A stretch of 64,000 bases of DNA, taken from assembly GCF_030323545.1 (NCBI RefSeq), contig NZ_CP122954.1, forward strand, positions 1 through 64,000, written 5' to 3'. Position 1 is the first letter of the stretch. The number at the start of each line of letters is the position of its first letter. Of this stretch, positions 11,975 to 16,042 are shown piece by piece. The position numbers and the translations under genes were made by a program. The stretch comes from Helicobacter pylori (GTDB lineage Bacteria > Campylobacterota > Campylobacteria > Campylobacterales > Helicobacteraceae). The notes under the pieces were generated by a model. The model made no database searches. It had not been told where the DNA came from and worked only from the letters and a program-made list of their open reading frames with translations.

Positions 11975-14900
11975 ATGGATTATAAAAAATTAGATTTACC
12001 CAACACAAACTACCCAAATAAAGAGCAACTGAAAGCTTTTGAAACCGCTTTTGACGCCTTTTTAGAAACCAACCCACAAGAAAATGAAAATCACCAAAAC
12101 GACGCTTTTAATGATTTATTGAAAGGTGTTTTTAAATACAAGGTTAAGCCCACCAAAAGAATAGACAGCGCTATTCTTAATGAAAATAACGAAGTGGAAG
12201 TGATCATTGAATTTAAAGCCCTTAAAAACCCCAACGAATTTATTAAAAAGGGTGATTTGAATGTTAAAGCCTTGCATGAAAGCCTTTTCTATTATCTCAT
12301 AGAAAGAAAAAATGGTAATAATAACCTTAAGCATCTTATCTTAGCCACTATTAAAGAGCTTTATATCATTGATGCGAACGAATTTGAGGTTTTTAATAGA
12401 GATAAAGAAATTGAAAACGCCTTTAAAGATTGCTACGATAGAAAGGGTAATGATACAAGCACAAAAGCGTTTTATGATGTTTGCCAAAAGCGCCTTAATG
12501 AACTTGATCATTCTTTGAAATACCACTATATCCCTCTCAAAAAAGAAAATTTAGCCCTAATCTATCAAGTCCTAAGCCCTAATTTTTTGCTCAAAATTCC
12601 AAAATATTCTGACGCTAACACGCTTAACAAAGATTTTTATGAAGAATTGCTTTACATTTTAGGGTTAGAAGAGCAAAATGACAAAGGGAAAATTTTAATC
12701 AAGCCTAGCCGCACCAAAAATTCCCTAAGCGATGCTTTAAGAGAGAAATACAAAAATTTAGACGATGAAGAAGTCATGGCGTTACTCATCGCTTGGAATA
12801 ACCGCATCTTGTTTTTACGGCTTTTAGAAAGCCTTTTAATTTCTTTCAAGCATTTTGAAAAACCTTTCTTAACCACAGAACACTTTAACGATTTCAACGA
12901 CCTAAACACCCTCTTTTTTGAAGTCCTAGCCAAGAAAAATAACGAGCGTTTCAAAGAAATTAAAGAAGACAAGATTTTAGAAAAAATCCCTTATTTGAAT
13001 TCCAGTTTGTTTGATGAAACGCCTTTGGAATTAAAGGTGTATGAAATCAAACTTTTAGACAATAAAAAGCTAGAAATCTATAAAAATTCCGTTCTCAAAA
13101 AACATGAAGATTATCAAAAAGAAAAAGATTTGCCCTTGCTGGAATACCTTTTTGCATTTTTGCGCGTTTATGATTTCACCACCACCCCTAAAGACATTAA
13201 AGATAATACAAATACCAGCGAAAGCCGTTTGATCAACCCTGCCGTTTTAGGGCTTGTTTTTGAAAAACTCAACGGCTATAAAGAGGGAGCTTTTTATACC
13301 CCAAGCTTCATTACAAGCTACATGTGCAAAGAGAGTATCAGCCAAATTGTGTTGGATAAATTCAATCAAAAATACAATATAGAGTGTGAAAAATTAGAAG
13401 AATTAAAAAATTATCTCAAAAATGATAGCTATAAAGAGGATAAACGCAAAGAATATCTGCAATTCCTTCTCACTTTACGCATTTGCGATCCGGCGGTGGG
13501 GAGCGGGCATTTCTTGGTTTCTGCGCTCAATGAAATGGTGTGGATTGCTTACAAGCTAGGGCTTATTGCTTCCTTGCATCGCTACGATCTTAAATTAGAA
13601 AACGATGAAATCATCATTCACTACACGCCAACGGGTGAAATCTTTAACTACACCAAACCGCATAGCGAAAACGACCCCCACCACCAAATCCAAAAAGAAC
13701 TTTTTGAGCTTAAAAAAGACATCATTGAAAACTGCCTTTTTGGCGTGGATATTAACCCCAATTCTTGCGAAATCACCAAGCTCAGGCTATGGATAGAGCT
13801 TTTAAAATACAGCTATTACATTTTTAAAGAGGGTAAGAACACTAATGCGCTTGAAACCCTCCCCAACATTGATATTAACATCAAGTGCGCTAACAGCTTG
13901 ATCTCACGCTTTAATTTGAATGATGATCTCAAAAAGATCCCCAATATCAAGAAAAAAATCCAAGAATATAAAGATCTAGTCGCCCAATACAAAGACCCAA
14001 ACCCTTTCTATCCCTTAAATAAGCAAGATCTTATCAACAAAATCCAAGACTTAAAAAACACTTTTTCCCTCACACTCAAAGACCCTAAAACCAAAGCAGA
14101 GCTTGAAAAGGCTATTGAAAAACACATCAAAAAATACAATTTCTTTGCCCTAGACGATAAGAGTTTGCTAGATGGGTTAAATTACTTTATCCTAAGCCTT
14201 TTTGGCACGCTTAAACTAAGCCACAAAGAAGAGGAAGAGGCTTTTGCTTCTTATGGGCGTATTAGAGCTTTAAGAAAAAAGCTTGATGATGCCTTAAGTG
14301 GTGGAGAGTATCAAAATGCGTTTGAATGGCGCTTTGAATTCCCTGAAGTTTTAAATGATGAGGGGGATTTTTTAGGCTTTGATTGCATCATTGGCAACCC
14401 GCCTTATATCCGCCAAGAACACATCAAAGACATAAAGCCTTTATTAGAAAAGCAATACCAAGATTTCTACAACAGCACCGCTGACCTTTACACCTACTTT
14501 TTTGCCCTATCTTACAATCTTTTAAAAGAAAAGGGGTTTAACGCTTTCATCACTTCCAACAAATACGCGCGCGCCAAATACGGCGCTAAATTAAGAGAAT
14601 TGCTACTCAAAAAAAACCACTATTGTCAGTTACATGGAATTGAACGCCTTAAAAGTCTTTGAGAGTGCCACCGTGGATACCAGTATTGTGAGTTTCATCA
14701 AACAGCCACCCCCCAAAGAGAGCGTTTTTAAATATTACGAACCCACCCCAAACGATGGAAACGATTTGAAAAGCGCCCATTCTCTACCCATGAGACAAAA
14801 CGCGCTTTCAACAGAAAGCTTTATTTTTGCCAACCCCACGCTTTTAGATTTGAGGGACAAAATAGAGAGTATCGGCACCCCGCTTAAAGACTGGGACATT

Positions 14901-15695
14901 CAAATCTATCGTGGCATTTTAACCGGTTGTAACGAAGCCTTTATCATTCCCACTGAAAAAAGAGACGCCATTTTGAACGCTTGCAAGACGCAAGAAGAAA
15001 GGGAGCGCACAGAAGTGCTTATTAAGCCCATTTTGAGAGGGAAAGACATTAAAAGGTATTCTTATGAGTGGGCGGATTTGTGGGTTATCAACACCCATAA
15101 CGGCTACACTTCTGCCCTCAAATCTAAAATCCCTCCCATTGATATAGAAAAAACCCCCGCAACAAAAGCGCATTTAGACTCTTATTATGATATTATTGCC
15201 ACACGATGCGATCAAGGAGACACCCCCTATCACTTAAGGAATTGCGCGTATTTAGAGGATTTTGAAAAAGAGAAAATTGTGTATCCAGAGACTTCACAGG
15301 GGGCGTATTTTAAATATGAAAACAGTGGAATATTTTTAGAAAAAACTGCATTTATGATTGTTAGTGATGCTCATAATCTTAAGCTTTTGACTGCTTTACT
15401 CAATTCTAAACTGATTACATTCTATTTTAAAAATTTTTGCGGAGGTTGTATTTTAGGCAAAAGTGGTTATCAATACAATAAGCATGCTTTAGAAAAAATA
15501 CCCATTCCTAAAATCACGCCGCAAAACCAAGAATTAGCCCGTAAAATCACCGATGGCGCAGAGCAAATCCTAGCGCTAAAAGAAAAAGACCCTAAAGCCA
15601 ACACCTTAGAATCAGAAAAAGAAATTGACGCCTTAGTCTATCAGCTCTATAATCTCACCGATGAAGAAATTAAGATCATTGAAGACGGGCAGTGA
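11975..15695 (+). pseudogene. Type IIG restriction-methyltransferase fusion, frameshifted at an A8 run
   Basis: A single-chain restriction and modification enzyme. The N-terminal part shows a PD-(D/E)XK-like site (IDSAIL...VIIEFKAL, about 62-84). The middle is an N6-adenine methyltransferase with motif I CDPAVGSGHF (about 503-512) and motif IV GNPPYIRQEH (about 805-814). The C-terminal 350 residues are the target recognition region. Frame 1 ends at 14662 (895 residues); the continuation lies in another frame to 15695. Removing one A from the A8 run at 14609-14616 joins them through LLLKKTTIVSYMELNALKVF into about 1239 residues, a normal family continuation. As it stands, the enzyme lacks its recognition domain. 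The A8 run may allow reversible switching. Confidence 0.88.
14609..14616 (+). repeat. Poly-A tract (A8) at the type IIG frameshift
   Basis: Eight A precede the point where the reading frame must shift by one base to restore the conserved protein sequence. A7 would restore the frame. It is a candidate low-rate phase-variation site or a fixed knockout. Confidence 0.65.
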
Positions 15696-15714
15696 ATAAA
15701 AAGCGCTTTACCTT

Positions 15715-15763
15715 AAAGGAAACCCCTTAAATAGGGGAAACCTTTGGCTTAATGGGTTTTTTT
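15715..15763 (+). terminator. Candidate terminator hairpin after the type IIG gene
   Basis: AAAGG and CCCC (15715-15726) pair with GGGG and CCTTT (15734-15745), with an AAA/AAA internal loop between the two stems. A run of seven T follows at 15757-15763. It sits about 20 bp after the type IIG stop codon. Confidence 0.5.
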
Positions 15764-15780
15764 AACAACGATTTTAACCC

Positions 15781-15904
15781 TATACTTAAAAAAAGGTATT
15801 TTTAAGTATAATACAACCAAAGGCTTTTTACCATGTTTTTTGGACATAGTAATCCTTTGAAGGTAATTTACCCCCTAATCTCTAGCAAAAAAACTAGGGG
15901 GTGA
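15781..15904 (+). other. Small bidirectional locus: promoter, 23-codon ORF, antisense -10, hairpins
   Basis: In the 347-bp spacer between the type IIG gene and nusA, TATAAT at 15807-15812 precedes AAAGG (15819-15823) and an ATG at 15833. The ATG opens a 23-residue frame beginning MFFGHSNPLK and ending SSKKTRG, with TGA at 15902-15904. A minus-strand -10-like TACTAT covers 15846-15851, so an antisense RNA would start near 15839 and cover the ribosome site and start codon. A 12-bp perfect inverted repeat (15781-15792 / 15799-15810) and an 8-bp one (15870-15877 / 15895-15902) bracket the unit. The layout is that of H. pylori AapA/IsoA type I toxin-antitoxin loci, but the peptide does not clearly match AapA as I remember it. 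Confidence 0.45.
15833..15904 (+). CDS. Putative 23-residue peptide
   Basis: A short frame with its own -10 box and a ribosome site 9 nt before the ATG. It has an aromatic N-terminus (MFF), a central LKVIYPLI hydrophobic patch and a basic C-terminus (KKTRG). A GC-rich hairpin covers its last third. Chance cannot be excluded for so short a frame. The promoter plus ribosome site plus antisense box is the reason to list it. Confidence 0.35.
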   Translation: MFFGHSNPLKVIYPLISSKKTRG

Positions 15905-16042
15905 GCATGATTTTATCCTAATCTTACAAAAACGATTTTGATAAAAGCTACAAACCGCTGATTTAAAATTGCATCAAAAAACTTTCTTCCAAATTTTTGA
16001 AATTTAGTTAAAAGCTTTTTAGAGATTGGATTTTAGACACCC

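Follow-up and report, generated by a model that had tools for sequence, protein, structure and literature searches.

A probable aapA/IsoA type I toxin-antitoxin copy downstream of nusA in Helicobacter pylori, with its toxin frame on the minus strand

The locus described here lies downstream of nusA, and in the same orientation as nusA, within the window (the whole 64,000-nucleotide stretch of DNA that was analysed). It adjoins nusA and a type IIG restriction-methyltransferase gene in those H. pylori-like genomes whose flanks are covered. Its features, beginning at the putative 5' end of the minus-strand transcript, are as follows.

15910..15915, minus strand: candidate -10 box TAAAAT of the aapA mRNA, proposed from the sequence, with a putative start at about 15902-15903
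15868..15902, minus strand: 5' stem-loop of the aapA mRNA, ACCCCCTAG...TTAGGGGGT, from the predicted fold
15853..15858, minus strand: Shine-Dalgarno (SD) sequence AAAGGA of aapA, read from the sequence, 5 nt before the AUG
15749..15847, minus strand: aapA toxin frame, 32 codons and a stop, MSKKHGKKPLVVLYLKIPFFKYRVKIVVKKTH, from the open reading frame list, homology to AapA1 and its intact state in nine lineages
15819..15823, minus strand: anti-SD within the frame, CCUUU, at codons 9-10, complementary to AAAGG and in the place of aSD2 of aapA3
15807..15812, plus strand: IsoA -10 box TATAAT, embedded in toxin codons 12-14, found by alignment; it corresponds to the IsoA3 -10 box (PMC6733600)
15819..15898, plus strand: predicted IsoA antisense RNA of ~80 nt, positioned from the -10 box, with ends modelled on the 80-nt IsoA3
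15723..15737, minus strand: 3' hairpin CCCCUAUUUAAGGGG followed by a U-rich stretch, from a terminator-like scan and the fold
15710..15720, minus strand: 3' anti-SD UCCUUUAAGGU, pairing with ACCUU-C-AAAGGA at 15864-15853 in the predicted fold of the full-length mRNA
15833..15904, plus strand: 23-codon frame of the initial annotation, antisense to the aapA start and leader and judged not to be a gene

The neighbouring type IIG gene (plus strand, 11975-15695) is itself divided between two frames (11975-14662 and 14634-15695) that jointly cover the full length of a single PADLOC profile (1-897 and 892-1247). An A8 tract lies at about 14610-14617, near the frame change, and so phase variation of this gene through slippage is possible.

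The minus-strand peptide is a clear relative of AapA. Its best match in the PDB is AapA1 (PDB 6GIG; phmmer, E=0.0064), and BLASTP aligns the two without gaps over 30 residues, with 13/30 identities (43%) and 19 positives, at E=2e-8 for the single comparison of the 32-aa peptide with AapA1 (residue letters of the latter from PMC10537873). It is a cationic peptide of ~30 aa homologous to AapA1, as expected of the family. It ends in KKTH, and not in the C-terminal Lys-Arg that is required for the toxicity of AapA1. The Lys-Arg ending is a functional feature of AapA1, not an established mark of the family, and its replacement makes toxicity less certain while leaving the homology untouched. Prolines also occupy positions 9 and 18, in place of Ser, in the helix region, and for AapA3 a proline at codon 9 was considered likely to remove toxicity (PMC6733600). 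Because of Pro9, Pro18 and the KKTH end, the toxicity of the predicted peptide may be weak, or its action may be of another kind. No Pfam or NCBIfam model matched either the 32-aa peptide or the 23-aa peptide of the plus strand, no PADLOC profile matched the 32-codon frame, and the plasmid and phage collections gave no match.

The antitoxin, IsoA, is on the plus strand. Its -10 box lies within the toxin frame on the opposite strand and has survived in all copies extracted, even those that are broken. In aapA3 the IsoA3 -10 box is likewise located in the toxin frame (primer FA283; PMC6733600), and in the aapA3 copy of this genome, recognised via the primers of that study, a TATAAT overlaps Leu-Tyr codons just as it does at 15807-15812. 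The published aapA3-FL is 225 nt, with the -10 box of IsoA3 inside the frame, aSD2 at codon 9 and a 5'-3' interaction (PMC6733600). The predicted IsoA span would cover the aapA start codon, the SD and most of the 5' stem-loop; the fold of this RNA by itself is unremarkable (z -1.4).

On the minus strand, the candidate TAAAAT is kept across the H. pylori-like alleles aligned, except one (G019, with TACAAT). No consensus -35 element was found for the aapA mRNA, and a simple sigma-70 promoter scan gave no match, which is uninformative here because the -35 is weak. The predicted mRNA (15905..15700) is unusually stable, at -76.3 kcal/mol (z -7.8), with 0/200 shuffles equally stable, and in its full-length form the SD is predicted to be locked through long-distance 5'-3' pairing, as in other aapA copies of the genome. 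This topology is common to nine alleles, each of which is predicted to pair its SD with the 3' anti-SD, and similar folds, with their own SD and anti-SD, are predicted for the intact copies at C1:1603656 and C1:123409 of this genome and for second nusA-adjacent copies in G016 and G024. With 40 nt trimmed off the folded stretch at the 3' side, only a hairpin of 2-3 pairs is predicted to hold the SD in 8/9 alleles.

Comparison of eight alleles bears on these pairings: the 12-pair helix of the 5' stem-loop is 100% paired in all eight, and 94.2% of pair cells are kept, as against 38-61% with partners slid. Four pairs have changed on both sides; one of them, which reads CG in place of UA in two alleles, is a compensatory change in the long-distance helix formed by the 3' anti-SD (helix 3). 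A shuffle control for pairs with double changes was modest (10/500 for these eight related sequences). With this weaker control, and sequences that are few and related, covariation supports rather than proves the predicted fold. A perfect 12-bp inverted repeat, TATACTTAAAAA/TTTTTAAGTATA, at 15781-15810, falls within the toxin frame and shares bases with the IsoA -10 box; two distant genomes retain the repeat (helix 6), with a compensatory replacement of AU by GC. At gathering score, Rfam reports only a tRNA within the window; two snoRNA matches at E<=1 are far under threshold and were taken as chance.

Across 34 genomes of the genus, five others carry an identical 32-aa frame, a sixth has one of 97% identity, and two more distant ones (G005 and G006) match at 77-84%; the frame is thus intact in nine lineages, seven H. 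pylori-like genomes and the two distant ones. Within the frame, the window differs from G006 and G005 at codon positions 1/2/3 by 7/2/11 and 8/1/11 changes, few at position 2 and most at position 3. In a DNA alignment of 11 alleles, the leader hairpin, SD, frame, 3' hairpin and 3' anti-SD are conserved as blocks. The toxin is broken in four alleles, all of which keep the IsoA -10 box: G026 and G018 have in common a 4-base deletion in the frame, with one further base missing from G018; G001 is frameshifted; and G019 has neither a start codon nor the complete frame. The SD is kept as AAAGGA in intact H. pylori-like alleles and reads AAAAGA in two of the broken ones (G018 and G001). Loss of the toxin before the antitoxin would be expected if the toxin is costly to the cell.

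The initial annotation had correctly seen here a type I toxin-antitoxin locus of AapA/IsoA geometry, with the roles of the strands swapped: it placed the toxin in the 23-codon plus-strand frame, under an antisense RNA launched on the minus strand from a TACTAT, and proposed a diverged or separate, undescribed family. The elements it listed all exist, namely the plus-strand TATAAT (15807-15812), AAAGG (15819-15823) and 23-codon frame, the minus-strand TACTAT (15851-15846), and two inverted repeats, one perfect (15781-15792/15799-15810) and the other GC-rich (around 15870-15902). The supposed ribosome site AAAGG is the complement of the CCUUU at toxin codons 9-10, and TACTAT overlaps the real AapA AUG at 15847-15845. 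The ATG and first codons of the plus-strand frame are indeed almost unchanged in ten alleles, but these are antisense to conserved AapA codons and the SD, which explains their conservation, whereas the distal part varies: frame lengths in the ten alleles scored are 23, 55, 23, 24, 24, 23, 23, 32, 23 and 15 codons (four further alleles, without the anchor used, went unscored). The weak resemblance of its peptide to AapA is undetectable, with no alignment to AapA1 at E<=100, and the peptide scores low in hydropathy (best 18-residue mean, 0.58). The window holds one ATG frame of 20-40 codons that has both a TATAAT upstream and an SD-like site; 60 order-2 Markov simulations of 64 kb gave 0.72 such units on average, with at least one in 55% of the simulations. 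A unit expected ~0.7 times per 64 kb is by itself no evidence of a gene. A plus-strand toxin mRNA of a diverged or new family is therefore extremely improbable. The features that exceed chance belong to the minus strand, namely the AapA-like frame, the conservation of that frame and the fold of the mRNA.

Taken on homology, anatomy, the conserved predicted fold and the conserved antitoxin -10 box, the region of 15781-15904 is very probably a chromosomal aapA/IsoA type I toxin-antitoxin copy of H. pylori. Like aapA1/IsoA1 of strain 26695, it combines a cationic peptide of 30-32 aa, the size of a single helix and aligning over its full length, with an antisense RNA promoter inside the frame and a predicted 5'-3' mRNA pairing that hides the SD; it differs from aapA1 in peptide sequence (43% identity), in its prolines and KKTH end, in being 2 residues longer and in the sequence of its leader hairpin. 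With aapA3/IsoA3, which adjoins hpn-like and is present in this genome at C1:123409, it shares the same order of 5' hairpin, SD, aSD2 at codon 9, IsoA -10 TATAAT within the frame, 3' hairpin and 3' anti-SD, although the peptides are 33% identical and the very 5' and 3' ends pair in the predicted aapA3 fold, whereas the nusA-linked copy has a free-standing 5' hairpin.

By homology to aapA1 and aapA3 (PMC6733600, PMC8322730), from which transcription, trimming, duplex formation and membrane-peptide toxicity are carried over, the minus-strand aapA mRNA, about 205 nt long, would be held inert by pairing of its 3' end with the ribosome site until 3' trimming activates it. IsoA, ~80 nt and starting on the plus strand from the TATAAT within the toxin frame, would then pair with the trimmed mRNA across the start region and block translation, and RNase III would remove the duplex.

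The AapA/IsoA family has six chromosomal loci in H. pylori 26695 (PMC6733600). With AapA1 as query, further aapA copies were found in this genome at C1:1603656 and 1603345 (311 bases apart), 123409 (aapA3), 385549-385645 and 1501946, the last with no in-frame start seen. The aapA1-like copy at G000:C1:385549-385645 is frameshifted by a tandem repeat, TTATACCTTATACC (repeated TTATACC), that partly duplicates the IsoA -10 region. In several relatives (L035, L037, L032 and others) a second aapA copy, MRKNHSKYSWETLYLKISFLGFCLELKIKR or MKNHRSKHSWKELYLKISFLGLKFDLVIKR, lies ~300 bases away next to nusA; the genome of the window has only one aapA copy there. The literature searched did not mention the nusA-linked copy by name, nor did its text on HP1515/nusA or on aapA2-6 give a position. 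Another aapA locus, aapA6 (HPnc8050) of 26695, to which Nrr1 of G27 is similar, could by its number lie near nusA, which is only a lead interpolated from gene positions. The family is known, and a database built from Helicobacter genomes (T1TAdb) very probably contains the nusA-linked copy. It is an ordinary AapA/IsoA copy, of a system already described in H. pylori, and the proposal of a separate family finds no support.

It may be that the locus is decaying or repurposed, with a peptide that is no longer toxic and a role mainly as non-coding RNA; the same has been proposed for Nrr1 of G27, an aapA6-like RNA without a frame (PMC5385501). The four alleles with a broken frame or start and a standing IsoA -10 box point this way, as do the prolines in the helix region; yet frame, SD and fold are intact in this genome and eight other lineages, and codon position 2 has changed little between distant lineages, and we consider decay or repurposing unlikely. 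The copy could also represent a distinct AapA subfamily, marked by Pro9/Pro18 and the KKTH tail, in which the peptide acts on a different target or is no longer toxic and the RNA switch is preserved. Such a subfamily seems to us quite unlikely; if it were real, the locus would serve as a regulatory RNA pair.

The correction of strand matters: annotation of a 23-aa plus-strand peptide here would be wrong, the real toxin frame being on the minus strand. The natural alleles, whether intact, frameshifted, deprived of their start or changed in the SD, and all with the -10 box kept, also offer a small natural test of which parts of a type I module go first.
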